From Blautia sp. (GTDB lineage Bacteria > Bacillota > Clostridia > Lachnospirales > Lachnospiraceae), in assembly GCA_023667395.1 (NCBI GenBank), contig JAMPAC010000016.1:1-58452 (forward strand): 58,452 nucleotides of DNA, in the 5' to 3' direction. Below the pieces are notes generated by a model. That model had not been told where the DNA came from. It saw nothing but the letters and a program-made list of their open reading frames with translations, and did not search any database. A program made the translations under genes and the position numbers. This document shows, piece by piece, positions 8,242-52,234 of the stretch (position 1 is the first letter of the stretch; every line of letters begins with the position of its first letter).

Positions 8242-8302
8242 TATGATAGTTCCGTCTCTGCGCTGCTGCGCCTTTGCATGCGCCCCCGCTCCGAGACTGT
8301 TT
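8242..8302 (-). repeat. Leader element copy before yesL
   Basis: On the minus strand AACAGTCTCGGAGCG (8288-8302), a GC-rich middle, then GCAGAGACGGAACTATCATAGG (8240-8261 region) running into the Shine-Dalgarno. Both conserved halves are present; GTCTC and GAGAC can pair. Confidence 0.7.
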
Positions 8303-8785
8303 CTAAAATACTTTCTCCATCTCCGTGACGCGGATGCCGGAATACTCTTCTTCCGGCTTCACTGTGCGGAAGCCAAGTTTACGGTAAAAATCCACCGCGT
8401 AGGGAGCCGCTTTCAGGGACATGGAATGTTCCCCGGCCTCTTCTTTCAGGTAGCGGCACAGCCCGTTGATGATCGCTTTTCCCACGCCCCTGCGGTGATA
8501 GTCCTCGTCCACAAACAGCAGGGAGAGATGATTCCCGCCGCGTATGGTTCCCGCCCCTATGACCCTGCCGCTCTCCACGGCCACCATCATCTGGTAATTC
8601 CCCCTCAGGAAAGCCGTGTACAGTTCGTCATCCGTGATGAATTCAAAAAAGTGCTGAATCCCCTCTCTTGTATAATCCTTTCCCTCATATTTTAAAAAGG
8701 TTCTCCAGATCATTTTCATGGCAGGCGCCCACTCCGAGTCATACGCCCACCGGATCTGGTAAGTCCGTACCGCCCCTGTGTCCAT
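8303..8785 (-). CDS. GNAT family N-acetyltransferase
   Basis: A 160-residue acetyl-CoA-dependent acyltransferase of the GNAT fold. The acetyl-CoA loop is seen in the DEDYHRRGVGKAIINGLCRY region (about residues 100-120), followed by the FYRKLGF motif and a C-terminal strand. The acceptor substrate cannot be read from the sequence. A GTG 24 bp upstream is in frame, but the ATG at 8785 lies just past the stop of the upstream hydrolase gene (8790) behind GGGAAA, so I use it. It is probably co-transcribed with the hydrolase. Confidence 0.85.
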   Translation of the reverse strand: MDTGAVRTYQIRWAYDSEWAPAMKMIWRTFLKYEGKDYTREGIQHFFEFITDDELYTAFLRGNYQMMVAVESGRVIGAGTIRGGNHLSLLFVDEDYHRRGVGKAIINGLCRYLKEEAGEHSMSLKAAPYAVDFYRKLGFRTVKPEEEYSGIRVTEMEKVF

Positions 8786-8789
8786 GCCG

Positions 8790-9743
8790 TCATTTCCCAA
8801 CTTTCTCACGCAGCACCTTTTTCACGATCCATTGATAGATATCCTGCATGACGTCCCTGCGGTTCGTCTCGTTCAACAGTTCATGCCTGCCGCCCTCGTA
8901 CAATTTGATCGTGGTGTCCTCCAGTCCTACTGCCCGCAGGGAAATGTACGCTTTCCGCACGCCTTTCCCATAATCGCCCACCGGATCGGCGTCTCCCGAC
9001 ACCAGAAAGACGGGAAGCTTTTTGGGAATGCGCTCCAGGTTCTCCGAATGATAGAGCCTGCTGATCAGTTCGAACAGGGTCTGGAAGCCGTTGATGGTAA
9101 ACACAAATCCGCACATGGGATCGTCCATATACTGTTTTACCCGCTCCCCGTCCCGGCTGAGCCAGTCAAAAGGCGTTTTGGGATTCGCTATGCGGCGGTT
9201 GTAAACGCCGAAAGCCAGCTTATCCAGCAGTTTTCCCTTTTTCTCCGGGCCAAATAACATTCCCTGTGCGGCCGCTATCGTCCTGGACAGCACCAGAAGC
9301 GCCTGATGCTGCATTCCGGTTCCCATGACCACAACGCCGTCGATTGCCGCGCCATAGCGGAACATGTAATTTCTGGTAATAAAGGAGCCCATGCTGTGTC
9401 CCACCATCACGTAAGGGACGTTGGGATAAAGTTCCGCCGTGGCTTTCTTCAGGCGGTGCACATCCCGCACCAGAACCGTAGCCGGATCCTGTTCGCAGAA
9501 ATAGCCATACCTGCCGTCCCTGCCCACGGACCTGCCGTGTCCCATATGATCCTCGCCAACCACCACGAAGCCGCGATCCGTCAGGAATTCCGCAAATTCC
9601 TCATACCGCTCCACATATTCCGACATGCCGTGCACGATCTGGACAACGCAGCGGATGTTTTCCGGCTCGTCCGGGGTATACCGGACGGCATGCAGTTTGC
9701 TTTTCTTGTCCCGCGAATCATAATAAAATTCTTCCTTAACCAT
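8790..9743 (-). CDS. Alpha/beta hydrolase, monoacylglycerol lipase / lysophospholipase-like
   Basis: A 317-residue cytoplasmic alpha/beta hydrolase of the Hydrolase_4 / PldB group. The nucleophile elbow is GHSMG with Ser117; an Asp in SGDADPVGDY (about 250) and His in GGRHELLNE (about 285) complete the triad, and HGMSEYVERY near residue 38-47 is the usual oxyanion-loop signature. It likely cleaves an acyl ester from a lysolipid or monoglyceride; the substrate is inferred from family only. A TATACT-type -10 at 9783-9788 (minus) suggests its own promoter. The GNAT gene follows without a gap. Confidence 0.87.
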   Translation of the reverse strand: MVKEEFYYDSRDKKSKLHAVRYTPDEPENIRCVVQIVHGMSEYVERYEEFAEFLTDRGFVVVGEDHMGHGRSVGRDGRYGYFCEQDPATVLVRDVHRLKKATAELYPNVPYVMVGHSMGSFITRNYMFRYGAAIDGVVVMGTGMQHQALLVLSRTIAAAQGMLFGPEKKGKLLDKLAFGVYNRRIANPKTPFDWLSRDGERVKQYMDDPMCGFVFTINGFQTLFELISRLYHSENLERIPKKLPVFLVSGDADPVGDYGKGVRKAYISLRAVGLEDTTIKLYEGGRHELLNETNRRDVMQDIYQWIVKKVLREKVGK

Positions 9744-9837
9744 AATTTACCTCATCCTTACAGACAACAGCGCCTATAAAGAAGTATACCTTATTTCCGT
9801 GTGAAAATTAAGTACTTTATATAAATTTCACATATTA

Positions 9838-11835
9838 TCAGCAGATCTCCGCCCCCGCAGGCATATCTGTTTCCGGTTTCATCAGCGCCAGATGACCCTC
9901 CGCATCCTCGGCGCAGAGCAGCATTCCCTCGGAGACCACGCCAGCAAGGGTGGCAGGCTTTAAGTTCACCAGCACCATGACCTTTTTCCCCACCATTTCC
10001 TCGGGGCTGTAATATGCCTTGATACCGGATACGATCTGCCTTACCTGGCTGCCGATCTTTACCTTGCTGCAGAGAAGCTTCCTGGACTTGGGCACCGCCT
10101 CGCAGGCAATGATCTCGCCTACCTGGAACTGAAGTTTCGCGAAATCGTCATAGGTGATCTCAGGCTTCGCTTCTAAATCAGTGGCGTCCGTGCCAGTGGC
10201 GTCCATGCCACCAGCGTTCTCCTTTTCATCCTGTGCGGCTTTTTCCGCAGCTGCCATGGCCGCCGCCAGTTCCTCCTCTTTCTTTTCCACATCTTTCATA
10301 TTCAGGCGGGCAAAAAGGATCTCCGGCGCATCCGTGACCTTATTTCCGCTCTCATACAGGCCGAACCTCTCCAGCTGGTCAAATTCCCTCAGGGAAACGT
10401 TCAACTGCCCGGCGATCCTGGCCGCAGTCTCCGGCATATAGGGCTCCAGCAGGGAAGCGCCGATGACAATGCTTTCCACCAGGTTGTACAGCACAGTGGA
10501 AAGACGGTCCGACCTGGCCTCATCCTTTGCCAGCACCCAGGGCTCTGTCTCGTCAATATATTTGTTGCAGCGTTTGAAAATATCGAAAATCTCCGTTAGT
10601 GCATCCGCTATCCGAAGCCCTGCCATTTTCTCTGTCACTTTGGCGTAAGCCCCCGTGGCTACCGCTTTCAGATCCTCGTCAACTGCCTCGGAAACGCCCC
10701 TGTCAGCCACCACGCCGCCAAAATACTGGTTGCTCATGGAAATGGTGCGTTTCACCAGATTGCCCAAAGTGTTGGCCAGGTCGGAGTTAGTACGCTCGGC
10801 GATCAGTCCCCAGGTGGCGCTGCCGTCATTTTCAAATGGCATCTCATGGAGCATATAATAACGCACCGCGTCCACGCCGAAGAAATCGATCAGGTCGTCC
10901 ACATAAATCACATTTCCCGTGGATTTGCTCATCTTGCCACCGCTCATCAACAGCCAGGGATGTCCGAAGATCTGTTTGGGCAGCGGCTCCCCCAGCGCCA
11001 TCAGGAAAATGGGCCAGTAGATGGTATGGAAACGGATGATATCCTTGCCGATCAGATGCAGGTCCGCAGGCCAGAGTTTCCGATACTGCTCCGTGCTGCT
11101 GCCGTCCGCGTCATAGCCAATGCCGGTGATATAGTTGGACAGCGCGTCCAGCCACACATAAACCACATGCTTCTCGTCGAAATCCACCGGAATCCCCCAT
11201 TTGAAAGAGGTTCTGGAGACGCACAGATCCTGGAGTCCGGGCAGGAGGAAATTATTCATCATCTCATTCTTCCGGGATACGGGCTGAATAAATTCCGGGT
11301 GTTCGTTAATGTGTTTGATCAGTCTGTCCGCATATTTGCTCATGCGGAAGAAATATGCCTCCTCCTTGGCGGGCTTTACCTCCCTGCCGCAGTCCGGACA
11401 CTTGCCGTCCACCAGCTGGGATTCCGTCCAGAAAGACTCGCAGGGGGTACAGTACAACCCCTCATAAGACCCTTTATAGATATCCCCCTGATCATACAGG
11501 CGCTTGAATATCTTCTGCACCTGCTTCTCATGGTAATCATCGGTGGTGCGGATAAATTTATCATAGGAAATATTCAGCATATCGCACATTCCCCGGATGA
11601 TACCCGCCACTTTATCCACGAATTCTTTGGGGGTGACGCCCGCTTCCTGGGCTTTCAGTTCGATCTTCTGCCCGTGCTCGTCGGTGCCGGTCTGGAAGAA
11701 AACCTCATAGCCTTCCTTTCTCTTAAAGCGCGCTATGCTGTCCGCCAGCACGATCTCATAATTGTTGCCAATGTGCGGCTTGCCCGATGTGTAGGCAATG
11801 GCCGTGGTCAGATAATAGGATCCTTTGTTCTGCAT
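9838..11835 (-). CDS. metG: Methionyl-tRNA synthetase, long form with C-terminal tRNA-binding domain
   Basis: Charges tRNA-Met and initiator tRNA with methionine. The 665-residue protein has the class-I HIGH-type motif GKPHIGNNY (about 18-26), a zinc knuckle with two CxxC pairs (CTPC, CPDC, about 128-150), the KMSKS loop (GGKMSKSTG, about 296-304), an anticodon-binding helical domain (about 380-500), an Ala/Glu-rich linker (about 525-560) and a C-terminal Trbp111/EMAP-like tRNA-binding domain (about 560-665) used for dimerisation and tRNA capture. AAAGGAG precedes the ATG. A T-box leader upstream makes expression respond to uncharged tRNA-Met. Confidence 0.96.
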   Translation of the reverse strand: MQNKGSYYLTTAIAYTSGKPHIGNNYEIVLADSIARFKRKEGYEVFFQTGTDEHGQKIELKAQEAGVTPKEFVDKVAGIIRGMCDMLNISYDKFIRTTDDYHEKQVQKIFKRLYDQGDIYKGSYEGLYCTPCESFWTESQLVDGKCPDCGREVKPAKEEAYFFRMSKYADRLIKHINEHPEFIQPVSRKNEMMNNFLLPGLQDLCVSRTSFKWGIPVDFDEKHVVYVWLDALSNYITGIGYDADGSSTEQYRKLWPADLHLIGKDIIRFHTIYWPIFLMALGEPLPKQIFGHPWLLMSGGKMSKSTGNVIYVDDLIDFFGVDAVRYYMLHEMPFENDGSATWGLIAERTNSDLANTLGNLVKRTISMSNQYFGGVVADRGVSEAVDEDLKAVATGAYAKVTEKMAGLRIADALTEIFDIFKRCNKYIDETEPWVLAKDEARSDRLSTVLYNLVESIVIGASLLEPYMPETAARIAGQLNVSLREFDQLERFGLYESGNKVTDAPEILFARLNMKDVEKKEEELAAAMAAAEKAAQDEKENAGGMDATGTDATDLEAKPEITYDDFAKLQFQVGEIIACEAVPKSRKLLCSKVKIGSQVRQIVSGIKAYYSPEEMVGKKVMVLVNLKPATLAGVVSEGMLLCAEDAEGHLALMKPETDMPAGAEIC

Positions 11836-11851
11836 GTCGTTCTCCTTTCTT

Positions 11852-11895
11852 ATTCCAGTTCCGTCTCTTCGCTGCTGCGCCCTTGCGCCCCTTTA
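11852..11895 (-). repeat. Leader element, 3' half, between T-box and metG
   Basis: Minus strand GAAGAGACGGAACTGGAATA just before AAAGGAG of metG, preceded by GC-rich GGGCGCAAGGGCGCAGCAGC that resembles the middle of the yesL copy. The 5' half is missing, replaced by the T-box terminator region. Confidence 0.55.
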
Positions 11896-11909
11896 CCCCG
11901 GGTAAATTT

Positions 11910-12253
11910 AAAAAGCCCGTCTTCCTGTATTTTTTACATAGAAGACGAGCCTATACCCGCGATACCACTTCTTTTTATCCGCTCCTCACAGAGCGAACCT
12001 CATCGGGTTCATGGCCATTTCCCGCCGTAAACCCTGTCCGCTATAACAGGCGGAACCTGTCGCAGCCTTACCTGGGCAACTTTCCCCGGCTCGGTGCGCT
12101 GCTCGGAAGCCATCTTCCGCGTCTCCCCGCCCCATTCCTCTCAGCTGCCAGCCTCTCTCGCCCCGCCGGGGACGACCGGATGACCGGAATGTTCTCTGTA
12201 AAGCATCCAATACGCGTACTCTCTTCGTCACTGCGTTTACTTCATTCTCATTA
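11910..12253 (-). promoter_or_regulatory. T-box riboswitch of metG (predicted methionine specifier)
   Basis: A leader RNA that senses uncharged tRNA. The conserved T-box itself, AAGTGGTATCGCGGG, lies at about 11957-11970 (minus strand). The competing terminator stem pairs 11941-11950 with 11915-11924 (GCTCGTCTTC/GAAGACGGGC), followed by TTTTT (11910-11914). The stem I base begins near 12228 with the GACGAAGAGAGTA pattern. A candidate AUG specifier is at 12113-12111 in GGAAGATGGCTTCCGAG, matching the downstream gene. T-box class is certain; the specifier position is a reading by eye. Confidence 0.9.
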
Positions 12254-12259
12254 GAACAT

Positions 12260-12289
12260 AGTCTAGCACATGAAAACCATGGATGTCAA
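12260..12289 (-). promoter_or_regulatory. Promoter of the metG T-box transcript
   Basis: Minus strand TTGACA (12289-12284), 18-bp spacer, TAGACT (12265-12260) preceded by TGC, an extended -10. It places the start near 12253. Confidence 0.8.
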
Positions 12290-12303
12290 TGCAGAGTTTT
12301 CCG

Positions 12304-12332
12304 TTGACTTTTTATTAAAAATATGATATGGT
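12304..12332 (+). promoter_or_regulatory. Promoter of the small coiled-coil gene
   Basis: TTGACT (12304-12309), 17 bp, TATGGT (12327-12332), divergent from the metG promoter 15 bp away. Confidence 0.65.
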
Positions 12333-12370
12333 TACGGCACACTGAAATATAAGAAAGGAGGAGCAAGTAA

Positions 12371-12658
12371 ATGGCATTGACAAATGAGGATCTGATGGCA
12401 ATCTCAAATCTGATGGATCAGAAGATATGTCCCATCAACGACAGGCTTGACTGCATAGAGATCAGGCTTGACCGCATGGAGATCAGGCTTGATAAACTTG
12501 AATCCGACGTATCCGCACTGAAAGTCGGACAGGCCGAACTCAGCAGTCGCTTAACAGAAATCGATAAAAAGGTTTCCTACACTTATCAGCTGGCTCTTGA
12601 CGCATGGGGCACAAGCACGGAAAACAGAACCTGGCTTGAAACCGGACTGAAAGCATAA
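12371..12658 (+). CDS. Small coiled-coil protein, unknown function
   Basis: A 95-residue soluble protein. Residues about 20-65 form a heptad repeat (DRLDCIEIRLDRMEIRLDKL) that should make a parallel coiled coil; the heptads are encoded by near-repeats of GAGATCAGGCTTGA. Small proteins of this kind are frequent, often multi-copy, in Lachnospiraceae genomes and some form the tail of larger accessory proteins. A very strong AAAGGAGG ribosome site and its own promoter make it a genuine gene. There is no partner gene to suggest a role. Confidence 0.8.
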   Translation: MALTNEDLMAISNLMDQKICPINDRLDCIEIRLDRMEIRLDKLESDVSALKVGQAELSSRLTEIDKKVSYTYQLALDAWGTSTENRTWLETGLKA

Positions 12659-12790
12659 AAAAGTCCGTACTTTGTTCTGCGCACAAAACATCTCCGCATG
12701 ATCTTTTTTTACCCACCAACACCAAAACATATGCCCAAATATTAAACCGTTAGTTTGCAGTGATATTCTCTGGATTCCCCTCGAAATATC

Positions 12791-12799
12791 TGTTATACT
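12791..12799 (+). promoter_or_regulatory. Extended -10 promoter of the acyltransferase gene
   Basis: TGTTATACT at 12791-12799 (TGn plus TATACT); no clear -35. The start codon follows 34 bp later behind ACGGAGA. Confidence 0.6.
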
Positions 12800-12833
12800 A
12801 TCACTTAATATATGAATCCGAACGGAGACCGAT

Positions 12834-14009
12834 ATGAGCGATAAGTTAAAAACAGACAAAAGATCCGGCATAACCGCACAGGCGGATCCCAATGCAAAAG
12901 GCGGGCGCATGGCCAACCTGGAACTGCTGCGGTGTATTGCCATGATGATGGTAGTGGTACTGCACTTCCTGGGCAAGGGAAATCTCCTGCCGCCATTGGA
13001 CGGACAGAGCATGAGTACAGCCGGTTATGCCGCCTGGCTGCTGGAAAGCTTCTGCATTGTAGCGGTGAATGTCTACATGATGATCAGCGGTTATTTCCTG
13101 TGTACATCTCATTTTAAATTGAGCCGTCTGATCGGGCTGTGGTTCCAGATCGCGTTCTACTCCATAGGCTTCGGTCTGATCGGCGCGCTTACGGGAATCC
13201 TGGTGGAAACTCCCTTTGACATCCACTATATCCTGACCCTGGTCTTCCCAATCTCCATGGGACATTACTGGTTCCTGACGGCATATGTTTTCCTGTATCT
13301 CCTGCTGCCTTTCATAGGGCGGGCGGTCAGGCAGATGAGCCGCAGTCAGCTGCAATGGTCCATAATGCTGCTGTTCTGCGTGTTCTGCCTGTTAAAAAGC
13401 ATACTCCCCATGCGTCTGGAGATGGACAGCATGGGATACGACTGCCTCTGGTATCTGTGCGTATTCCTGGCCGCCGCGTACATCAGGCGGTTTGGCGTGC
13501 CCTTTCTGGAGAAAAAGGGGCGCGGGCTTCTGACCTATGCAGTCTGCTGCCTGGCCATCTTTGCGGGGACCATGGGACTGCGGGGCATTTACCTGAAAAC
13601 GGGGAGTTTCGGGCTGATGCTGAAAATGTTCCTCGAATACAATCACATCCTGCCATTCCTGGCGGCTGCCGGATTGTTCACGGCTTTTGCGGGATGCAGG
13701 GTAGAGGGCAGGCTTGCCGCCTTTATAACGCGTATTTCCCCTTACACGCTGGGCGTCTACTTACTGCATGAAAATATCGGCTTCCGCTACAGCTGGCCGA
13801 AATGGTTCGGCGCCGCCGATGTGGATTCCGTCCCGGGCCTGCTGTTTTGCACTCTGGCGGCGGTGGTCTGCGTATTCTGCTGCGGCGTCCTGATCGACAT
13901 GGTGAGAAGCATTTTAATGAAAGGACTGCACAGCCTGCTGCAGAAATTAAAGATTTATCGGAAAATGACGGAAAAAATATACAGCGTGGATGCCATATTC
14001 CGCGCCTGA
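12834..14009 (+). CDS. Membrane acyltransferase (Acyl_transf_3 / OafA-like)
   Basis: A 391-residue polytopic protein with about ten transmembrane helices. The N-terminal pattern NLELLRCIAMMMVVVLHF (about 28-45) includes the family's catalytic-region His. These enzymes move acetyl or other acyl groups from the cytoplasm onto cell-surface polysaccharide, peptidoglycan or lipid. The substrate is unknown because no glycan gene cluster is adjacent. It is preceded by its own extended -10 promoter and followed by convergent genes, so it is monocistronic. Confidence 0.88.
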   Translation: MSDKLKTDKRSGITAQADPNAKGGRMANLELLRCIAMMMVVVLHFLGKGNLLPPLDGQSMSTAGYAAWLLESFCIVAVNVYMMISGYFLCTSHFKLSRLIGLWFQIAFYSIGFGLIGALTGILVETPFDIHYILTLVFPISMGHYWFLTAYVFLYLLLPFIGRAVRQMSRSQLQWSIMLLFCVFCLLKSILPMRLEMDSMGYDCLWYLCVFLAAAYIRRFGVPFLEKKGRGLLTYAVCCLAIFAGTMGLRGIYLKTGSFGLMLKMFLEYNHILPFLAAAGLFTAFAGCRVEGRLAAFITRISPYTLGVYLLHENIGFRYSWPKWFGAADVDSVPGLLFCTLAAVVCVFCCGVLIDMVRSILMKGLHSLLQKLKIYRKMTEKIYSVDAIFRA

Positions 14010-14075
14010 TATTCTTTCAACTTATGGTGGAACCGCCTGTCTCCCCTGCGATATAAAAACTGCCGATATTTAATC

Positions 14076-14780
14076 CTATTTCTTCGTGGTAAGCCGGGAA
14101 TATTCTCCCCTGCGGTCATAGGAATCCATGAGATAATTATCCTCTGTGCGGGCACAACTGATCTCCACCGTATCCCTGCGATGCCTGCTGTGCCTGTGCA
14201 GGTCTTCTTTGGACTGTTCCCGTTCTGTCCGAAAGAGTTCCCTGGTCTGTGCGTCCAGGGACTTTCCGGCGCGCCTGTCATGCAGCTGCCCTGACATATT
14301 GCGAAAACGATCTTTCACTTTCCGGAAAAGATTTTGTCTCTGCTTTCGTCTCTCCTTTGCAGTTTGATATCCTGTGTTATTTATTTTGTCCGGCTGTGAT
14401 GCCGCAGGAACCGCCGCAGCGGCCGCAGATACCATAACAGTCGTTTCTGTATGGCCTGCGGCCTGGGATACCGCCTGCCCATTTTCAGCGCCGCTTACGC
14501 CCGCCCTGCCGCTTGCAGAATTTCCAGCGGATGCCTGACCCTCACCCCAGAAGTTCAGCAGGAATCCCTTACCGTTTCCCAGCGCGTTCTTCAGCCAGGA
14601 CGTCAAGGAAAAGAGACTTTCCTGCTGCAATTCCGCTTTTGCCCCCTGGACATCTGCAGCGGCGGAAGATTTCATTGCCATCCCGCCGGTATGATTCTGG
14701 GTATCATGATGGTCATGTATGCAGTTTGTCACATGATGATCCCCGGTGCCATGGCTTCCGCCCAGTCCGCCGATCTGCAT
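14076..14780 (-). CDS. Hypothetical protein with His-rich N-terminus and basic tail
   Basis: About 234 residues, not recognised. The frame opens at 14828, overlapping the rpe stop, but the ATG at 14780 is preceded by GGAGGCGGAGG and is preferred. Features: a His/Asp cluster (GTGDHHVTNCIHDHHDTQNH, near residues 8-27), a low-complexity Ala/Gly/Ser middle, and a basic C-terminal part (KERRKQRQNLFRKVKDRFRN). No signal peptide or clear membrane helix. The His cluster could bind metal, but nothing else supports that. It follows rpe in the same operon. The composition is unusual, so a disordered protein is likely. Confidence 0.6.
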   Translation of the reverse strand: MQIGGLGGSHGTGDHHVTNCIHDHHDTQNHTGGMAMKSSAAADVQGAKAELQQESLFSLTSWLKNALGNGKGFLLNFWGEGQASAGNSASGRAGVSGAENGQAVSQAAGHTETTVMVSAAAAAVPAASQPDKINNTGYQTAKERRKQRQNLFRKVKDRFRNMSGQLHDRRAGKSLDAQTRELFRTEREQSKEDLHRHSRHRRDTVEISCARTEDNYLMDSYDRRGEYSRLTTKK

Positions 14781-14818
14781 AGCCTCCGCCTCCATTTCCA
14801 TTGAATCGTCTCTTGAAG

Positions 14819-15478: not shown

Positions 15479-15557
15479 CCCATCGTTTCCTCCTGAGTCC
15501 ACTTCCACACCGTCTATTTTATCAAATATTTCACACTACCGCAAGAGGCATATCATT

Positions 15558-16931: not shown

Positions 16932-17074
16932 TCGTACTTCCCCCACCTTACTGTACTACCTGAATTTATAAAGGAATAACGCTTGTCCTCTATATGTTAG
17001 ATACAGTGTAATATAGAAATGTATCATTTTTGTTTATCTTTTTCTTAATATTTTTTTATTTTTGAATTATTTTA

Positions 17075-17126
17075 TTGACACGTTTGTCTAATAGTGTTAG
17101 ACTAGCATTGTCTAAAGACGTTAGAC
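17075..17126 (+). promoter_or_regulatory. blaI promoter with two BlaI-type operators
   Basis: TTGACA (17075-17080), 17 bp, TAGACT (17098-17103). Two dyads of the same form overlap and follow it: GTCTAA-5-TTAGAC at 17086-17102 (covering spacer and -10) and at 17110-17126. Their centres are 24 bp apart. The position and duplication are typical of autorepression by a BlaI/MecI repressor. Confidence 0.85.
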
Positions 17127-17154
17127 ACGGGTACAAAGGAGGCATGATACCAAT

Positions 17155-17523: not shown

Positions 17524-17529
17524 AAGTCA

Positions 17530-17578
17530 ATGACCCCACTGCAAGCATGGCCATTTGCCTCATTGCTCGCGGGACAAG
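17530..17578 (+). repeat. Degenerate copy of the palindromic intergenic repeat, between blaI and blaR1
   Basis: The outer parts match the copies at 20258 and 24752 (TGACCCC..., TTTGCCTCATTGC, CGCGGGA), but the central GGGAATCATGATTCCC palindrome is missing. Confidence 0.5.
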
Positions 17579-17629
17579 ATACACCTGATCGATTAAAATG
17601 CCGCTTAGGCGGCGGAATGAGAGGTAAAC

Positions 17630-20256: not shown

Positions 20257-20257
20257 C

Positions 20258-20329: not shown

Positions 20330-20344
20330 CAACTTATAAAATTA

Positions 20345-42658: not shown

Positions 42659-42913
42659 TTACAAAGTCCCCTGTGTGAAAAGGCTCTTCACATGCTCGAC
42701 CTCTTCCTCGGTGGCCTTGCTTGCGGGAACATAATAGGACTTTTCCCTTGCAATCTGGTACAGTTCCTCCTGTGACTGCTCACAGGCATTGCGGAACTGC
42801 TTCAAAGTGGTCTTCAGTTCCTTGTTCTCGGACTGTGCGATCATACCCGCATAGCGGGTCAGTTCTCCATTGATACCGGCGAGGGTATCCGCAACCATAA
42901 TTTTCTCCTGCAT
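42659..42913 (-). CDS. CotF-like spore coat protein (small)
   Basis: An 84-residue helical protein. It resembles one half of a CotF-type coat protein: GINGELTRYAGMIAQSENKE followed by a long helix and the SYYVPASKATEEEVEHVKSL end. The frame runs upstream through the leader element to 43108, but the ATG at 42913, seven bases after GGAGG, is the true start. It is paired with the 61-residue gene at 43195; paired small CotF-like genes are common in Clostridia. A leader-element array separates the two genes. Confidence 0.8.
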   Translation of the reverse strand: MQEKIMVADTLAGINGELTRYAGMIAQSENKELKTTLKQFRNACEQSQEELYQIAREKSYYVPASKATEEEVEHVKSLFTQGTL

Positions 42914-42921
42914 AATCTGCC

Positions 42922-43049
42922 TCCATTCCAGTTCCGTCTCTGCACTCCAATGCCCTTGCTCTGAAAGAAATTTCATCTGCAAAGTTCGCAGCTGAAAATT
43001 TCTTTCATGTGCTTTCAGCACATTGCATTTCCCGTTCCGAGACTGTTTC
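42922..43049 (-). repeat. Leader element copy A
   Basis: Full copy on the minus strand: ACAGTCTCGGAACGGGAAA at the far end, an internal hairpin of about 19 bp (GAAAGAAATTT ... AAATTTCTTTC arms with GCAGCTG/CATCTGC), then TGCAGAGACGGAACTGGAAT merging into the GGAGG of the next gene. Confidence 0.85.
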
Positions 43050-43194
43050 CATTCCAGTTCCGTCTCTACACTCCAATGCCCTTTCTCTGAAAGAAATTTC
43101 ATCTGCAAAAAACGCAGCTGAGAATTTCTTTCGGCATTTCCGTTCCGAGACTGTTTTTCAATTGCCGTTTACGGCAATTTGTTCCGTCTCTGCA
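43050..43194 (-). repeat. Leader element copy B plus an extra half copy
   Basis: Copy B (43050-43156) repeats the layout of copy A, including the GAAAGAAATTT hairpin, and abuts it directly. Further upstream GCAGAGACGGAACAA (about 43178-43192) is a separate half copy, joined by the perfect hairpin ATTGCCG-TTTA-CGGCAAT and lying at the stop codon of the 43195 gene. Confidence 0.85.
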
Positions 43195-43380
43195 TCAATT
43201 TAAAAACTTCATCAGCTGCTGCTTGTTGTCCATGGCAGACTTTGCACCCTTTTCAAAGAACTGTTTGATCTGAGGGTCTGTAGCCTGCTGTGCATACGCC
43301 TGCATCTTGCAATGTGTGGTGTCGTAACCGCCGATCAGATGACGCAGATTCTGCAAGTCCAATTCAGAAATGTTTGCCAT
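43195..43380 (-). CDS. Small CotF-like spore coat protein
   Basis: A 61-residue helical protein (MANISELDLQNLRHLIGGYD ... KQQLMKFLN) resembling the first half of CotF-type proteins, ending in a Gln-rich helix. AGGAGG lies nine bases before the ATG at 43380 (an ATG two codons upstream is closer to the Shine-Dalgarno and less likely). It belongs with the 84-residue partner downstream; the two probably form one coat component. Sporulation role is inferred from the family and from neighbouring spmA. Confidence 0.75.
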   Translation of the reverse strand: MANISELDLQNLRHLIGGYDTTHCKMQAYAQQATDPQIKQFFEKGAKSAMDNKQQLMKFLN

Positions 43381-43394
43381 AACCATAACCTCCT

Positions 43395-43447
43395 GTTTTA
43401 GTACTGTCTCCGCACTTTGGCGCCAGGCGCTTCCGTTCCGGGACCGT
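43395..43447 (-). repeat. Leader element copy C, short and diverged
   Basis: Minus strand ACGGTCCCGGAACGGAAGCG at the far end, GGCGCCAAAGTGCGGAGACA, then AGTACTAAAACAGGAGG. Both conserved halves are recognisable, with substitutions, and it again ends at the Shine-Dalgarno of the coat-like gene. Confidence 0.7.
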
Positions 43448-43486
43448 TATTATTTTACAAGGTTATTGTTGACCCTCGGGACAAAA

Positions 43487-46039: not shown

Positions 46040-46712
46040 TTCCCCACACCACCTTTAAATATTCTGGCTCTTTCGGATTCAGTTCCATTTTTTCACGGAT
46101 GCGTCTGATATGCACCATCACCGTATTTTCCGACGCAAAAGCATCCTCCTCCCACACCCGGCGGTAGATCTCCTCCGCAGGAAAAACACGCCCGGGATTG
46201 CGCATGAGCAGGTCAATGATGCCGGTCTCCCTGGCGGTCAGCTTTACCGGCTCGCCGTCCGCGTAGAGCGTCCTTTCGTCCGTTCGGTAAAGCAGTCTGC
46301 CGTTGCGGATCTCCCCGATCCGGTTGCCCGCGTTCACATCCCCCAGACAGGTATATCTGCGCAGCTGGCTCTTGACCCGGGCCGCCAGTTCCTGGGGATT
46401 GTAGGGCTTGGACACATAGTCATCCGCCCCCATGGACAATCCCAATACCTTGTCGGTCTCCTCGCTCTTGGCGCTGAGGACAATGACCGGGATATTCTGC
46501 TTTTCACGGATGCGCATCAATGCCGACAGACCGTCCAGCTTCGGCATCATCACATCGATGAGCACCAGCCTGACCTGACGGCTCGCAAGGATGTCCAGCG
46601 CCTGCAGCCCGTCATAGGCTTTCAGCACCTGGTATCCCTCGCCCTCCAGCAGGATACTGATCGCTTTCACGATCTCCCTGTCGTCATCCACCACTAATAT
46701 ACACTCGCTCAT
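46014..46712 (-). CDS. OmpR/PhoB-type response regulator
   Basis: A 232-residue regulator with receiver domain (1-120; phospho-acceptor Asp in LVLIDVMMPKLDG, about residue 54, and Lys in SKPYNPQEL) and a winged-helix DNA-binding domain (about 135-232; ARETGIIDLLMRNPGRVF, NTVMVHIRRIREKM). It is co-transcribed with, and overlaps, the histidine kinase gene. GGGAGGA precedes the ATG. A weak trace of the leader element (GGAGACGGGAGGAACG, and AAGACAGTCTGGAAAA upstream) is present. Confidence 0.95.
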   Translation of the reverse strand: MSECILVVDDDREIVKAISILLEGEGYQVLKAYDGLQALDILASRQVRLVLIDVMMPKLDGLSALMRIREKQNIPVIVLSAKSEETDKVLGLSMGADDYVSKPYNPQELAARVKSQLRRYTCLGDVNAGNRIGEIRNGRLLYRTDERTLYADGEPVKLTARETGIIDLLMRNPGRVFPAEEIYRRVWEEDAFASENTVMVHIRRIREKMELNPKEPEYLKVVWGIGYKMEKH

Positions 46713-46834
46713 ACGTTCCTCCCGTCTCCATGATGCTTTTCCAGACTGTCTTTGTCATAAGTCTTGAAACCGCCCCGCATTTAACTGTATCCTAAGGCTG
46801 ATACCAGAATACACTGCCTTTTTTACAAAATAAT

Positions 46835-46871
46835 AGAGGGTTTTCTTACAAATTTCTTACAAAAACCCTCT
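46835..46871 (-). terminator. Terminator of the Cys-rich microprotein gene
   Basis: Stem AGAGGGTTTT/AAAACCCTCT (46862-46871 with 46835-46844) with a 17-nt loop that itself holds GTAAGAAATTTGTAAG; followed by ATTATTTT on the minus strand. Confidence 0.75.
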
Positions 46872-46878
46872 GCCTCTC

Positions 46879-47058
46879 TTAGTTCTGATGCCGCACCACA
46901 CCGTATTCGTCGTCCAGCCGGAAGTAGGGACATTCCCGCTGGGTACCCGACAAGAAACGGTACATCTCATCCTCGTCCAGATTTACCAGACAACAGTAGC
47001 ACTCATAATCCTCGTCATATACATAATTGACACATGCGTCACAATTTTCCGCCGCCAT
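46879..47058 (-). CDS. Cys-rich microprotein (DUF6472-like)
   Basis: A 59-residue acidic protein with five cysteines: CDAC and CYCC near the N-terminus (about residues 6-9 and 20-23) and one later (QRECPYFRL). The composition suggests a small metal-binding (zinc) protein. It matches a family I recall as DUF6472, found in Clostridia; the name is from memory. AAGGAG is five bases before the ATG and a terminator follows, so this is a complete single-gene unit. It lies between rsmI and the two-component genes. Confidence 0.82.
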   Translation of the reverse strand: MAAENCDACVNYVYDEDYECYCCLVNLDEDEMYRFLSGTQRECPYFRLDDEYGVVRHQN

Positions 47059-47150
47059 TTATATTCTCCTTACTCAATCGCTGCCTGCCAGTCTTTATTG
47101 ACATATTGTCGAACCGCAGGCTATTATCTTTCCATATCCGCGTTATTCTT

Positions 47151-47182
47151 GTAACAGTTCAGACAGGTCACTGAACTGTTAC
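47151..47182. other. 12-bp inverted repeat at the end of rsmI
   Basis: GTAACAGTTCAG (47151-47162) and CTGAACTGTTAC (47171-47182) with an 8-nt loop. It spans the rsmI stop codon; no U-tract, so possibly an RNA stability element or weak terminator. Confidence 0.6.
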
Positions 47183-48027
47183 TTATTCTTTCCATGCAGA
47201 TACGCATAAATCTCCCGTTTTCCCACGCCTCTGTCCTTTGCCACCTGCTTCATGGCGGACTTGCTGTCCATGCCCTGCTGTCCGTAATAAGCCATATGCT
47301 CCTGGATGGTCATGGTCTCCCAGGAGGCGATCTCCTCCCTGCGCTTCTCCTCGCGGCTCCTGCCCTCCACCACCAGGACATACTCCCCCCTGGGCTCCTC
47401 GTTCCGATAATATTCCAGCGCCTTTTCCAGCGTGGTGGGCATCACCGTCTCAAACTTTTTCGTCAGTTCCCTGCAAAGGCTGATCCGCCGCTCTCCCAGC
47501 GCTTTGTAAAGTTCCTCCAGGGTCTTCGCCAGATGATGCGGAGCCTCATAGAGGATCATGGTACGGCTCTCCGACGCAAGCTCCTCCAGCACCTCCCGGC
47601 GCTCCTTTTTCTCCGCAGGCAGGAACCCTTCAAAGCAGAATCTCCTGGTAGAAAGCCCTGACAGCGTCAGCGCGGTAATGCAGGCCGCCGGACCTGGCAG
47701 GGAAGTCACGGGCACATTGTTCTCCTGGCACATCCGCACCAGCACCTCCCCGGGGTCGGAGATGGCGGGTGTTCCCGCGTCGGTGATCAGGGCGATATTC
47801 CGGCCTGAGAGCAGCTGATCCACCAATTGTTTTGCTTTCTCCACCTTGTTGTACTCATGGTAGCTGGTCATGGGGGTGTGGATATCGAAATGGTTCAGCA
47901 GTTTTATGCTGTTCCTGGTATCCTCCGCCGCGATCACGTCCACCATCCGCAGCGTATCCGCCACCCGGGGCGTCATATCCTGCAGATTCCCTATGGGAGT
48001 GGCGCATAAGTATAATGTACCTGGCAT
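47179..48027 (-). CDS. rsmI: 16S rRNA (cytidine-1402-2'-O)-methyltransferase
   Basis: Methylates the ribose of C1402 in the decoding centre of 16S rRNA. The 282-residue protein starts with the tetrapyrrole-methylase-like LYLCATPIGNLQDMTPR (about 4-20), then AAEDTRNSIKLL (about 34-45), ALITDAGTPAISDPGE (about 78-93) and PVTSLPGPAACITAL (about 104-118), all typical of RsmI. The ATG at 48027 follows AAAGGAAAC; 20 upstream codons belong to overlap with trmN6. It ends a YaaR-HolB-RicT-TrmN6-RsmI cluster shared with B. subtilis. Confidence 0.95.
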   Translation of the reverse strand: MPGTLYLCATPIGNLQDMTPRVADTLRMVDVIAAEDTRNSIKLLNHFDIHTPMTSYHEYNKVEKAKQLVDQLLSGRNIALITDAGTPAISDPGEVLVRMCQENNVPVTSLPGPAACITALTLSGLSTRRFCFEGFLPAEKKERREVLEELASESRTMILYEAPHHLAKTLEELYKALGERRISLCRELTKKFETVMPTTLEKALEYYRNEEPRGEYVLVVEGRSREEKRREEIASWETMTIQEHMAYYGQQGMDSKSAMKQVAKDRGVGKREIYAYLHGKNK

Positions 48028-48070
48028 ATTGTTTCCTTTCCCTTTCATATCTTCTGAAATCTGCTCTCCC

Positions 48071-48808
48071 TCAATACCCATAAACATCCCTGATCTCCGG
48101 CATATACTCCCCCGGCGCCCTGAATACGATCAGCGGCTTTTCCACGGTCATGCGGGGATTCCCGCCGCGCACTGCCTCCAGGAGCACCATGTTGGGTTCC
48201 CTGTCCACATAGGGGTAGACCAGCTGCATCCGCTTGGGCTCCAGCTTATATCGGACTAACTGCGTCATGATCTCCGCCAGCCGGAACGGACGGTGCACCA
48301 GGAAAAAATGTCCCCCCGGCTTCAGCAGTGCGGCGGCCTGCCTTACCACATCCTCCAGGGTGCACAGGATCTCGTGCCGGGCAATAGCCTTGGAATCCTG
48401 GGGATTGGTAAGACCATGGTTTCCGATCATATAGGGCGGATTACAGGTAATGCAGTCAAAAGAAGCAGGCGGGAACAAACTGCCTGCTTCTGTGATATCT
48501 CCGGTCACGATCTCTATTTTCTCCGACAGATCGTTTAACGCCACGCTGCGCCGGGCCATATCCGCACTTTCCGTCTGGATCTCCAGTCCGGTCAGGCGGC
48601 GGCATCCATACTTCGCCTCCATAAGCAGGGGAATGATCCCCGTGCCTGTGCCCAGGTCCAACAGCGTATCCGATGCTTTCGCACGGGCAAAACCGGTTAG
48701 CAAAACTGCATCCATGCCAAAGCAGAACTTCTCCGGGCTCTGGATGATCCGGTAGCCGTTGCGCTGCAAGTCGTCGATCCTTTCGTTTTCCTTAAGACTG
48801 ACTGTCAT
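48071..48808 (-). CDS. trmN6: tRNA1(Val) adenine-37-N6-methyltransferase family (YabB/TrmN6)
   Basis: A 245-residue SAM-dependent methyltransferase: LLDLGTGTGIIPLLM (SAM loop, about 50-64), acidic TGLEIQTESADMA and the NPPY catalytic motif (CNPPYM, about 124-129) that marks N6-adenine methylation of RNA or DNA. The ATG at 48808 follows AAAGGCAGG. The frame stays open much further upstream, inside ricT, but that extension is a shadow of ricT repeats. The gene overlaps ricT by 17 bases. B. subtilis yabB has the same place. Confidence 0.92.
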   Translation of the reverse strand: MTVSLKENERIDDLQRNGYRIIQSPEKFCFGMDAVLLTGFARAKASDTLLDLGTGTGIIPLLMEAKYGCRRLTGLEIQTESADMARRSVALNDLSEKIEIVTGDITEAGSLFPPASFDCITCNPPYMIGNHGLTNPQDSKAIARHEILCTLEDVVRQAAALLKPGGHFFLVHRPFRLAEIMTQLVRYKLEPKRMQLVYPYVDREPNMVLLEAVRGGNPRMTVEKPLIVFRAPGEYMPEIRDVYGY

Positions 48809-50441
48809 CCTGCCTTTGTCTTCCTTCCTGCCTGGGTCTGGTATCATGACGGTATCTGGGCTTGTAATCACGGCGCTGGTATCCCTCCTGGCGCTGGCCA
48901 TCCTGCCTGTGGTCATTCTGTCTCTGGCGGCTGTACTGCCTGTCCTGACGCTGACGGTTGTCCTGGCGTTCCTGGCTGTCACGGCGCTGGCCGTCGCGGT
49001 TGTCCTGGCGCTCCTGGCTGTCACGGCGCTGGCCATCGCGATTATCGCGGCGCTGATACCCCTCCTGACGCTGGCCGTCCTGCCTTCGGTTATCCTGCCT
49101 GTCCTGACGCTGGCGGTTATAGGGTCTGTCCTGTCTCTGACGATTGTCCTGACGCTCCTGGCCGCCTCTGCGCTGGCCGTCACGGTTATTCCGGTACTGA
49201 CCGCCCGCCTGCTGCCCTTCCTGACCGGCCTGCGGCCGGACATTGTCCGAACAAAAACCTTCCGAATGTCCCTCAGGATTCTCTCTGTAGGGCACACTCT
49301 CCTGAGGGGATTCTTCCGCCTGACCCTCATAATGACTGCGAGGCTGGCGCAAATCCTCTGACTGCCCATCCTGGCGGTAATTACTGCGCCGCTGACTATT
49401 GCCCTGGAAATAATTCTCCTGTTGTCCCTCCTGACGGTATCCGCTGCGGTACTGACTGTTATCCTGGCGCCGTTCCTCCCGCTGCCTGTCCTGACGGTTT
49501 CCGCCGCGCCGCTGGCTGCTTTCCTGCCTTTCCCCGCTCTCCTGGATCTCCTGGACTTCTTCCTCCTCCAGCCGCTCCAGTTCCTTTAACTCCTCCTTGG
49601 AAAGTTCCACATTCTCCTTTTTCCCATGCCTCCGCTTAAAGGCAAGCCTGCCCACCTCATATTCGCGGATTTCCTTTTCATCCCCCATATCCACCACTAC
49701 CTTGACCAGCTGGCGGAGTACGTTGACGCTCTGTACCTCCCCTTTCAGCCCGTCATTCGTGGTCACATGGTCGCCGATGCCGGGCAGCCTGCGGTTCAGT
49801 TCCTCATAGGTTTCCTCCTCGTTTTTCAGGCAGCACATCAGCCTGCCGCATACGCCGGAAATCTTGGTGGGATTCAGGGAAAGGTTCTGCTCCTTGGCCA
49901 TCTTGATGGACACGGGAACAAAGTCCGAAAGGTAACTGTGACAGCATAAGGGACGTCCGCAGATCCCGATGCCCCCCACGATCTTGGTCTCGTCACGGAC
50001 GCCGATCTGGCGCAGTTCGATCCTGGTCTTAAAAACGCTGGCCAGATCCTTCACCAGTTCGCGGAAGTCAATACGCCCGTCCGCAGTAAAATAAAAGAGA
50101 ACCTTGTTATTGTCAAAGGTATACTCCGCGTCGATGAGTTTCATCTCCAGACCATGTTTCTGGATCTTCTCCAGACAGATCTGAAAAGCTTCTTTCTCTT
50201 TCTCCTTGTTGCCCGCCTCCTGCTCCATGTCCCGCTGGTTGGCAATGCGGATTACAGGCTTCAGGGGCTGTACCACTTTCTCGTCATCCACCTCGGTGAC
50301 GCCGGACACCACAGTGCCGTACTCGATGCCCCTGGCGGTCTCCACGATCACATGGTCGCCGCGCTTTATCTCAAACTGCAGAGGGTCGAAGAAATAAATC
50401 TTTCCCGCCGTGCGAAATCTTACTCCGATTACTCTTGTCAT
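48792..50441 (-). CDS. ricT: PSP1-domain protein RicT (YaaT) with long repetitive Gln/Arg tail
   Basis: A component of the Ric (YmcA-YlbF-YaaT) complex, which in B. subtilis affects RNase Y cutting, biofilm and sporulation. The core (about 1-290) contains the two Cys sites CGRPLCC (about 177-183) and CGRLMCC (about 209-215) that bind iron-sulfur clusters in the complex, and the typical end. The B. subtilis protein is about 275 residues; this one is 549, with a tail of about 255 residues rich in Arg, Gln and Asp (DGQRRDSQERQDNR repeats). The leader at 50442-50545 has a possible promoter and a GGCTGCC/GGCAGCC hairpin. Confidence 0.93.
   Translation of the reverse strand: MTRVIGVRFRTAGKIYFFDPLQFEIKRGDHVIVETARGIEYGTVVSGVTEVDDEKVVQPLKPVIRIANQRDMEQEAGNKEKEKEAFQICLEKIQKHGLEMKLIDAEYTFDNNKVLFYFTADGRIDFRELVKDLASVFKTRIELRQIGVRDETKIVGGIGICGRPLCCHSYLSDFVPVSIKMAKEQNLSLNPTKISGVCGRLMCCLKNEEETYEELNRRLPGIGDHVTTNDGLKGEVQSVNVLRQLVKVVVDMGDEKEIREYEVGRLAFKRRHGKKENVELSKEELKELERLEEEEVQEIQESGERQESSQRRGGNRQDRQREERRQDNSQYRSGYRQEGQQENYFQGNSQRRSNYRQDGQSEDLRQPRSHYEGQAEESPQESVPYRENPEGHSEGFCSDNVRPQAGQEGQQAGGQYRNNRDGQRRGGQERQDNRQRQDRPYNRQRQDRQDNRRQDGQRQEGYQRRDNRDGQRRDSQERQDNRDGQRRDSQERQDNRQRQDRQYSRQRQNDHRQDGQRQEGYQRRDYKPRYRHDTRPRQEGRQRQDDSQS
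48795..49541. repeat. Repetitive coding region of ricT tail
   Basis: Low-complexity DNA encoding Arg/Gln/Asp repeats. Near-identical 42-bp copies begin at 48976 and 49018 (CTGTCACGGCGCTGGCC). Other RQDGQRQEGYQRRD-like units lie nearby. Confidence 0.85.
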
Positions 50442-50479
50442 CTATCCACCTCACTGGCGTTTTACGCCTTATTATTATG

Positions 50480-50544
50480 GGCTGCCCCCTGGCAGCCGTA
50501 CAAACTACAGCCGACAGCGCCACGCGCCACCGACTGTCATTTTA
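50480..50544 (-). promoter_or_regulatory. Probable promoter and leader hairpin of ricT
   Basis: Minus strand TGTTAAAAT (extended -10, hexamer 50539-50544), then a GGCTGCC/GGCAGCC hairpin (50480-50497). They lie in the 194-bp gap after holB, showing ricT can be read separately. Confidence 0.5.
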
Positions 50545-50635
50545 ACACATTTTTTCTGAAAAAGCCACCGTTTTCAGGCCATTTACTGCAATTACCATTA
50601 TCGGCTGTTTCCTGTTCACTCCATGACCAGCAGCA

Positions 50636-51628
50636 TCAGCTGTTTTCCTGGATGGTCAGCATCAGCATCTCCATGGTCAGTTCGAAATTCACATTGGCGT
50701 CCAGACGCCGTTTTGCTTTCTCCAGGGCGTCAATAATATTCTCTATTCCCTCATAACTGCTGTGCTGCGCCGTCTTTCTCAGGGACTGGATCTCCTCCCG
50801 AAACACCAGATGATTTACGTCATTAGTGGCCTTGAAAAGCAGCACGTCCCGGTACCAGATGGCAATGATATCCAGGTAATCGCTGATCTCCAGCTTATAC
50901 TCCGTTATCTTCTTGATGGCGGCGATCATCTCGCTCAGTTCCATCTCGCGGATATATTTTAAAAGGGACAGCGCCTCCGCTTTCACATTCTCAAAGTCCT
51001 CGCTGGAAGCCAGAGCTTTCGCCTTGCCGATATTGCCCCGGGCAAAGGCCACGCAGATTTCCGCCTTGTAATCCGGCACTTCCATCTGATGCATCAAAAA
51101 TTTCTTCACCAGTTCATCCGACACCGGTTTCATGTTCAGCACCACGCAGCGGCTTAATATGGTGGGAAGCAGGGAATTCACGTTGGCTGTCAGAAGCAGG
51201 ATCACCGTGTACTCCGGCGGCTCCTCCAGCGTCTTTAACAGCGCGTTCTGAGCCTGCACGGTCATTTTCTCCGCCTCGTTGATTATGTATACTTTCCGGG
51301 GGCTGCTGTAGGGCTTGATCGCCACGTCGTTATTCACCTGCCTGCGGATATCGTCCACGCTGATGGTATTGGGTTTCTCATGCATCACACGTATGATATC
51401 GGGGTGATTGTCGGAAAGCGCCTGCTTGCAGGAATGACATTCCTGGCAGGGATCCGCCCCGCCCTTTTCACACTGCAGCGCCATGGCGAACACCCTGGCG
51501 ATAAATTCCTTGCCGGAGGACTTTTCCCCATTGATGATATACGCATGGGAAATTTTCCCCGTGATAAGGGCATTATGCATGTGCTCCTTGATCTGTTCCT
51601 GTCCGATGATGTCCTGAAATCTCGCCAT
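50636..51628 (-). CDS. holB: DNA polymerase III subunit delta'
   Basis: Part of the clamp loader that places the sliding clamp at primers. The 330-residue AAA+ protein shows FQDIIGQEQIKEHMHNAL, a non-canonical P-loop (NGEKSSGKEFI, about 36-46), a zinc module (CEKGGADPCQECHSCKQ, about 53-69) and sensor 1 (LLLTANVNSLLPTILSRC, about 143-160). The ATG at 51628 is preferred, because GAGGGGG directly abuts the ATG two codons earlier. It lies between yaaR and ricT, as in B. subtilis. Confidence 0.95.
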   Translation of the reverse strand: MARFQDIIGQEQIKEHMHNALITGKISHAYIINGEKSSGKEFIARVFAMALQCEKGGADPCQECHSCKQALSDNHPDIIRVMHEKPNTISVDDIRRQVNNDVAIKPYSSPRKVYIINEAEKMTVQAQNALLKTLEEPPEYTVILLLTANVNSLLPTILSRCVVLNMKPVSDELVKKFLMHQMEVPDYKAEICVAFARGNIGKAKALASSEDFENVKAEALSLLKYIREMELSEMIAAIKKITEYKLEISDYLDIIAIWYRDVLLFKATNDVNHLVFREEIQSLRKTAQHSSYEGIENIIDALEKAKRRLDANVNFELTMEMLMLTIQENS

Positions 51629-51663
51629 CGCCATCCCCCTCTGTTGTTCCTCGAAGTGTTTTC

Positions 51664-52104
51664 TTAAGTAAATATGTCCAGGAGCAGTCCCCTGATCTCA
51701 CCGATCTTGTTCAGGATCGCAAGATTGTCTTTCTCGTCTTTCATCAGTTCCTGGGCCAGCTGATCCAGGTTCTCATCCACCAGACGTATGATACCGTATA
51801 CCCTGTGGCGTCCCCGCCTGTCCAGGAAATTCTCCCTGGAAAAGGAATGGGATCTGGTCACTACCTCATTCATAAATTCCTTTACCAGCCCCCTGTAGTG
51901 CCTCATATCCTTTACGTCGCGGCGTTTGGCAAGCTTTTCGCCCTGCATGGTGATCTCCTCCATCAGCGACTGTAATCTCGCCTGCAGTTCCGCCTCCTCC
52001 ACATGGCTGGCAAGCATAAATTTAAAGGAACCGTCCGTAGGCTGATTTGTCTGCACTTGTTCCACCGGCATCGGCTGGTTCACCTGGCCTACCTTAATCT
52101 CCAT
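51664..52104 (-). CDS. yaaR: YaaR family protein (DUF327)
   Basis: A 146-residue helical cytoplasmic protein. Its signature [20 protein letters not shown] (about 62-81) and [20 protein letters not shown] (about 96-115) matches YaaR/DUF327, a conserved Firmicutes family found beside holB; the molecular role is unknown. AGGAGGGC precedes the ATG. A diverged leader element lies between it and the gmk-like gene. Confidence 0.9.
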
Positions 52105-52114
52105 GAGCTTGCCC

Positions 52115-52234
52115 TCCTGTTCCAGTTCTTCACGATATCACCCCTGCCCTGAAAAATTTCACCTGCAAAAATCGCGGCTGGGAATTTCTTTTATGAGCCA
52201 TTCTTTGGCACATTAGACTTTCGTTCCGAGGCTG
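52115..52234 (-). repeat. Leader element copy D
   Basis: Minus strand AACAGCCTCGGAACGAAAG at the far end, an internal hairpin with GAAATTCCCAGCCGCG and GCAGGTGAAATTTTTCAGG, then GTGAAGAACTGGAACAGGAGG merging into the yaaR Shine-Dalgarno. It is diverged from copies A and B but has the same plan. Confidence 0.75.

Follow-up and report, generated by a model that had tools for sequence, protein, structure and literature searches.

A structured repeat family beside ribosome-binding sites in Blautia sp., probably a mobile element of 5'-untranslated regions

The window considered here is a stretch of 58,452 nucleotides (nt) of Blautia sp. (assembly GCA_023667395.1, contig JAMPAC010000016.1), in which a structured leader element recurs before minus-strand genes. 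An original prediction, made from the letters alone, had placed copies before a yesL-like gene, coat genes and yaaR; its motifs are found at those places, and the family proves to be larger than it had supposed. On balance we favour the view that this is a mobile, structured element of the 5'-untranslated region (5'-UTR) whose copies enter beside ribosome-binding sites while the Shine-Dalgarno sequence (SD) stays open. Structure, covariation, position, orientation, filled versus empty sites and changes in copy number were computed directly.

The window copies belong to a dispersed family with units mostly of 93–122 nt. A covariance model (R1) was built from 31 full-length copies of the own genome, aligned with MAFFT, with the structure taken from RNAalifold and inspection. 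In the own genome (G000, 4.43 Mb, 94% complete) it yields at least 140 matches at E ≤ 1 and at least 136 at E ≤ 0.01, a lower bound because 150 of 2393 candidates were scored. The 140 matches fall into 103 clusters (75 single, 21 double, 5 triple and 2 quadruple), 4 of them backed solely by matches at E 0.14–0.69. A DNA query with one full copy (42900–43060) gave 107 matches in the whole genome, and a search for the 15-nt left end, with as many as 2 mismatches allowed, gives 168 occurrences as against 14 for a reversed-pattern control. Within the window GAGACGGAAC is found 11 times with at most 1 mismatch (3.1 expected; 0 of 100 shuffles as high), while the excess of GTCTCGGAAC is weaker (7 vs. 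2.4 expected; 2 of 100 shuffles as high). Copies group by genome: among relatives at other loci, the nearest lies in the same genome for 62 of 126 copies (20 expected), or for 96 (36 expected) if the pair of sister genomes is merged. Runs of N, from assembly gaps or masking, occur within the tandem arrays at L069 (contig C147 of the own genome) and L312 (the sister genome G480), so the copy numbers there are uncertain.

The position of the element before gene starts is strict. With the SD defined by 5-mers, and the tail of the element excluded, an SD plus a start codon opening a frame of at least 50 aa follows at 94 of the 103 places in sense and at 1 of 103 in antisense, so that the sense position claimed for the window holds genome-wide. 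With 4-mers the figures are 98 and 5. A looser first test gave 94 vs. 5 of 103, but took the element's own GGAAT as an SD. Inspection by eye reveals a start codon at eight of the nine places missed with 5-mers, two of which (L013 and L101) lack a clear SD; the ninth (L018) is truncated by the contig end. Each place was given the strand of its listed match; the palindromic stems allow a copy to give a weak second match on the opposite strand (e.g., 105 vs. 33 bits). Twenty of the 103 places start within 5 nt of an upstream stop codon. Likeness between copies runs 3' to TGGAAT and then drops; an SD-like motif follows, at offset 1 in 39 of 66 direct tails. The homology thus ends before the SD, and SD and start codon are the recipient gene's own. 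The downstream genes share no common theme in our own reading, in which, from their N-termini and without a family search, we take them to include infB, truB, carB, purA, radA, ybaB, clpB and glyS.

Such placement bears on whether the element could be an ordinary repeat of the miniature inverted-repeat transposable element (MITE) kind, inserted at random, of which purifying selection alone leaves the sense copies before SDs. MITEs are typically patchy in distribution and amplified within genomes, and both features are seen here. The P1 strands of the fold described below form near-terminal inverted repeats, yet both ends carry CGGAAC in direct orientation; no clear target-site duplication was seen at the sites read. 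Selection should hardly act on insertions that lie behind genes, between convergent ones or in antisense, yet none of these is present among 102 readable places, whereas BOX, a classic repeat of Streptococcus pneumoniae, is listed with 16 copies between convergent genes and 70 upstream of coding sequences (PMC3049150, Table 1). We therefore regard random insertion with selection as quite improbable.

From its ends inwards the sequence folds into three helices, namely P1 (GTCTC/GAGAC), one of 2 bp (AC/GT) and an inner one (AATGC/GCATT and variants), which are separated by two purine internal loops, the outer one small, and then into one or two hairpins, an optional one (ATGTGCC/GGCACAT) and a longer one; the 3' end is an unpaired GGAACTGGAAT tail. 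P1 occurs as GTCTC/GAGAC, GCCTC/GAGGC, GTTTC/GAAAC and GACTC/GAGTC. In the MAFFT alignment of the 31 own copies, which was built blind to the structure but later served to derive it, 97.0% of stem cells are paired vs. 92.7% after shuffling of columns, 18 of 35 pairs are changed on both sides vs. 5.4 in shuffles, and the covariation score is 0.164 vs. 0.092 (at most 0.060 with slid partners). Further pair types are less clear (27 vs. 24.2; 26 of 500 shuffles reach the value). A second alignment, guided by the model and covering 126 copies (114 of them distinct) of several species, is biased towards the structure to which it was fitted; it has 94.1% of stem cells paired vs. 82.2%, double changes in 27 of 35 pairs vs. 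18.3, and 416 double-change cells vs. 92. The covariation score is reached by 0 of 500 shuffles in either alignment. Compensatory changes thus exceed both the column-shuffle and the slid-pair controls, as is expected of a structured RNA, and the covariation that the original prediction had named as a check is strong in the stems, also across species.

Outside the stems, G8, A10, G130 and A132 of the first internal loop, G13, G125 and A127 of the second, and the G, G, A and C of the GGNAC end are conserved to at least 94%; the internal-loop bases may form G·A pairs. On the sense strand G·T wobbles outnumber A·C ones in the stems (60 vs. 23 in the multi-species alignment, 18 vs. 9 in the first), which suggests that the sense strand is the one that folds, although the rows are related and the comparison is not a clean test. 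The two full tandem units in the window fold far better than their shuffles (Table 1), the second into the consensus structure. The leader before the yesL-like gene is a short form, with P1 enclosing a small inner hairpin; of 200 shuffles, 5 fold as well as it does (z -2.5).

Stems of this strength (z about -3.5 in the two units), together with a sense frame of 60 codons or more that stops no further than 100 nt upstream of 80 of the 103 clusters, would also suit an element of mRNA processing or stability. The long helix might be a substrate of RNase III or a 5' stabiliser, by which the operon mRNA would be cleaved between its cistrons and the part downstream protected. Such an effect has a precedent in the enterobacterial repetitive intergenic consensus (ERIC) and Correia repeats, which are reported to introduce RNase sites (PMC3049150). 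Processing alone, however, leaves unexplained why the copies adjoin the SD and why none was found elsewhere, and we consider this explanation unlikely.

Under the favoured reading, a mobile 5'-UTR element, copies would insert in sense into the short gap between an upstream stop codon and the SD of the next gene, and tandem duplication would often follow. The RNA would fold as a long helix, with the unpaired GGAACTGGAAT tail keeping the SD of the host gene outside the fold. In line with this, the gene's own SD has a mean unpaired probability of 0.596 vs. 0.541 with a shuffled element (8 shuffles each), and is more open than in the shuffles at 70 of 99 places (99 of the 103 were used). The downstream gene would retain a functional ribosome entry site of its own even though it is pushed some 50–440 nt from its upstream neighbour, and the element could thereby spread through compact operons at little cost. 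Translation downstream would be either unaltered or uncoupled from that of the upstream gene.

A small hairpin module, AAATTGCCGCAAGCGGCAATT or AAGTTCCTGCAAGCAGGAACT, stands between element and SD at 30 of 99 places, and also occurs between tandem units. Its initial letters served to identify it in the interval from GGAAC to the SD; examples are found at 43160–43180 of the window and at L009 and L013, and its arms covary by eye. The module may be mobile on its own.

Orthologous sites in the relative G001 and the near sister G480 support the proposal of the original prediction that these are mobile or recruited 5'-UTR modules. At the yesL-like gene, where AAACAG and TAGGAGG flank the element in the window, the empty sites read TTTTAAAAACAGTAGGAGG in G480 and TTTTAAAAGTAATAGGAGG in G001. 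At the coat pair the empty site of G001 reads AAATTAGGAGGCAGATATG, in which the stop codon TAG overlaps the SD and GGAGGCAGAT is retained, while the window holds about 265 extra bases; G480 has one unit there and the window two. The gap before ybaB is 16 nt in G001 (empty) and 183 nt in the own genome. The element is absent from 9 of the 9 orthologous sites read in G001 (yesL, coat pair, ybaB, yaaR, metG, the CdaR-like gene and three places on contig C11), all of them chosen because the own genome carries the element there. R2, a second covariance model built from copies of several species, finds nothing at E ≤ 0.1 in 13 stretches of G001 around eight of these sites, nor in the ybaB stretch. 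Tandem number also differs between the two sister genomes (e.g., 3 vs. 1 and 2 vs. 3 units), and one place in this comparison retains just the small hairpin and the tail. The insertion point lies between the upstream stop codon and the SD. The empty gaps of at most about 20 nt, or overlaps, at the coat, yesL and ybaB sites suggest that insertion separates closely spaced, possibly coupled cistrons.

The strict 5'-UTR position, the conserved unpaired G and A positions and the tail could instead belong to a regulatory leader, in which a trans-acting RNA-binding protein, for instance one like CsrA, binds the purine loops or tail and sets the translation of a dispersed regulon; that the element could set translation had been proposed in the original prediction. 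In leaders regulated by CsrA, GGA is expected within hairpin loops that overlap the SD; here GGA motifs recur, in the internal loops and the tail, and the own genome has 6 CsrA-family matches. Against this, the downstream genes have no common function in our reading, and only 2 of 79 downstream genes elsewhere (76 distinct; sister genome left out) match any of 101 own ones at ≥80% identity, which is about chance level for an assumed number of some 4000 genes; in the sister genome 10 of 18 match. CsrA is present in 50 of 61 genomes of the genus regardless of carriage of the element, and was not found in the carrier G020 (80% complete). We thus judge a regulatory leader to be improbable, though less so than random insertion. 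A conserved regulon is not supported, ybaB excepted, and CsrA as an explanatory partner finds no support in its presence, which does not track the carriers. The CsrA-family matches themselves comprise one standard gene and five divergent ones (contigs C130, C40 and C143), three of the latter within about 13 kb on C130.

Known classes of structured leader were compared through Rfam (4227 families). At the gathering score the window yields matches to the signal recognition particle RNA and a tRNA end only, and 20 loci (18 from other genera, 2 from the own genus) yield none, in agreement with the original prediction, whose author knew of no named RNA class with this form; with a relaxed threshold the best match to the element is Gut-1, at 19.9 bits where 50 are needed. 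A match to a known terminator would have spoken against the prediction, and the sense strand of the coat region has no terminator-like site, those present being on the plus strand; a promoter or terminator reading of the coat copies is therefore without sense-strand support. A riboswitch, T-box, attenuator or intrinsic terminator would account for a structured leader, and one half copy does adjoin a T-box before metG; the lack of an Rfam match and of a sense-strand terminator, the unrelated downstream genes and the variation of tandem copies between sisters make any of these very improbable.

In broad kind the element would be a small mobile intergenic repeat, and it differs from mycobacterial interspersed repetitive units (MIRUs), TAACTGA repeats and BOX, each in a feature looked at here. 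MIRUs occur in tandem copies. Repetitive extragenic palindromic (REP) sequences and bacterial interspersed mosaic elements (BIMEs), with the REP-associated tyrosine transposase (RAYT, of the Y1 family), are palindromic intergenic repeats amplified within genomes. In our case the Y1 transposase PF01797 has no match in the copy-rich own genome, and orientation and position are tied to gene starts; the family is present in 20 of 61 genomes of the genus, in carriers and non-carriers alike. Mobilisation by Y1/RAYT was accordingly rejected.

In placement MIRUs and TAACTGA repeats are among the closest known. MIRUs are described as small, apparently mobile units whose insertion at the start of translation hardly affects the gene, and that carry an open reading frame coupled to the gene with a spacing of -4 nt (PMC12548453). 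Both are small, mobile-looking repeats at gene starts; the present element, however, is a covarying RNA fold before the SD and not at the start codon. Judged by position, its insertion lies 5' of the SD, and the recipient uses its own SD and start, unlike the start-codon insertion of MIRUs. TAACTGA repeats of marine Beggiatoaceae lie mostly in one orientation just before the start codons of unrelated genes, are patchy across lineages and have been proposed to have a translational role (PMC4679880). They share orientation, placement and patchiness with our element, but they are heptamers for which no secondary structure is predicted, they overlap the place where the ribosome is expected to bind, and only about 10% of such regions have an SD, whereas the present element is about 100 nt long, highly structured and keeps the SD. 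The modular, folded build is most like that of BOX, which is composed of boxA, boxB and boxC modules, variable in tandem number, predicted to fold as RNA and able to affect downstream genes (PMC3049150). The two are set apart by placement, since the readable copies studied here all lie in sense before a start and never between convergent genes. Our literature searches returned no description of the element in Lachnospiraceae or Acetatifactor, a statement that holds for those searches only.

Several points weigh against a mobile 5'-UTR element. If no SD is required, a start codon with a frame of at least 50 aa is found at 101 of 103 places in sense, yet also at 51 of 103 in antisense, and such starts are thus common by chance. 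The multi-species alignment contains 169 other stem mismatches (21 in the first alignment). The copy before yaaR folds no better than its shuffles (z +0.8) and appears decayed, and the effect on SD accessibility, though real, is small. A mobilising enzyme was not found in the own genome, where the Y1 family was searched. A long autonomous copy did not turn up either, although no search was dedicated to it and 100 of 168 left ends were listed, those outside model hits being unread. The G480 site at yesL retains AAACAG before the SD, and this empty site could therefore be an excision footprint. At ybaB the element is present in 4 of 7 carrier genomes read (own and G067 by model, G065 and G083 by eye), which exceeds what independent rare insertions would give, so that some sites are shared or hot. 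Finally, the evidence comes from genome sequence throughout, and transcription of the element, its insertion in real time and any effect on translation are hypothetical.

The distribution is patchy. R1 has matches in 8 of 61 genomes of the genus (own included) and in 0 of 24 others. R2 has matches in at least 29 of 138 genus genomes and at least 7 of 397 family genomes, the latter being one for each of 7 out of 334 genera (the own and 6 others); both are lower bounds, as 29 and 10 candidates per genome were scored, respectively. The exact pattern of tail plus SD occurs in 73 stretches of a public genome collection, including Lachnospiraceae, Acetatifactor and the isolate Bacterium D16-50. Other genera keep the same architecture in different letters; 23 of their copies were printed, and a start codon follows in 20 of the 20 with readable downstream sequence. 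The coat array of the window gives no match in phages or plasmids, and no viral contig has the tail pattern; carriage by phages or plasmids is not supported. By eye, genus genomes with a match look larger (mostly 3.3–6.0 Mb) than those without one (many 2.2–3.2 Mb), an impression drawn from 20 of the 109 genomes without a match.

Table 1. Copies of the element and adjoining features in the window
Feature	Position	Strand	Evidence
Full element, long form (extra hairpin), second tandem unit before Coat_F gene	42931..43045	-	R1 125.1 bits, E 2.1e-26; z -3.4
Full element, short form, first tandem unit	43057..43153	-	R1 103.8 bits, E 3.4e-21; z -3.6
Element 3' end GAGACGGAAC with small hairpin module AAATTGCCGTAAACGGCAATT	43160..43190	-	sequence
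Tail TGGAAT (end of inter-copy homology), then SD GGAGG of the gene	42914..42930	-	position profile; ATG at 42913
Downstream gene, Coat_F domain	42659..42913	-	Pfam PF07875, E 6e-14
Upstream small gene ending at the array	43195..43380	-	open frame; coat gene in the original prediction
Degenerate short copy before first small gene	43401..43445	-	left-end match, 1 mismatch
Diverged copy before yaaR (DUF327, PF03885)	52119..52234	-	R1 E 5.8e-10
Short element before yesL-like gene (DUF624, PF04854; start 8229)	8249..8299	-	SD AGGAGG at 8238-8243
3' half copy between T-box leader and metG	11852..11895	-	exact GAGACGGAAC
Remnant GGTCTCGGAACCGGAGTAGGAGG before PucR/CdaR-like regulator gene (PF13556)	6085..6107	-	motif match

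The element end at 43160–43190, which the original prediction had missed, heads the tandem pair and forms the left part of the same insertion; like the rest of the array it is absent from G001, and it is present in G480. The small gene upstream of it matches no Pfam family. The copies at 8249–8299 and 43401–43445 are not listed by R1 at E ≤ 1. The yaaR copy starts directly after the stop codon of a gene with a guanylate-kinase domain (PF00625). The half copies proposed before the CdaR-like gene and metG are real, the first lying at 6085–6107 and not at 6095–6113; a trace suspected before the response regulator (46712) did not hold up, no element being present there in 5 of 5 relatives read. 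At the CdaR-like gene G480 has a related short leader and G001 none, and at metG the site in G480 is a longer, partly masked array. Before metG a T-box leader was seen at 11938–12240 on the minus strand (RF00230, 68 bits, E 1e-14, below the gathering score of 93), which places the half element between the T-box and the SD of the gene. A second dispersed repeat, of about 280 bp, lies near the element but is distinct from it (L309:11823–12105, on contig C11 of the own genome); it occurs at several places in G480 at 85–94% identity, and its matches in G001 are weaker and mostly shorter.

Insertion may well be targeted to the vicinity of SDs, by a route that could pass through RNA or single-stranded DNA. 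Going further, we tentatively put forward, as a possibility we ourselves rather doubt, that the ribosome-binding region is the actual target of the element: the mobile form would be the structured RNA or the matching single DNA strand, a factor of the host or borne by the element would place copies beside SDs in sense, and coupled cistrons would become separately initiated. If the favoured reading is right, the intergenic leaders of about 100 genes, many of them presumably core ones by our own reading, e.g., infB, carB and purA, would have been rebuilt by one structured insertion family that respects the SD. The family would then offer a natural setting in which to study how operons cope with, or make use of, insertions that part a stop codon from the next SD, and which machinery is able to recognise a translation start as an insertion target. 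The carrier isolate Bacterium D16-50 makes this question directly testable.

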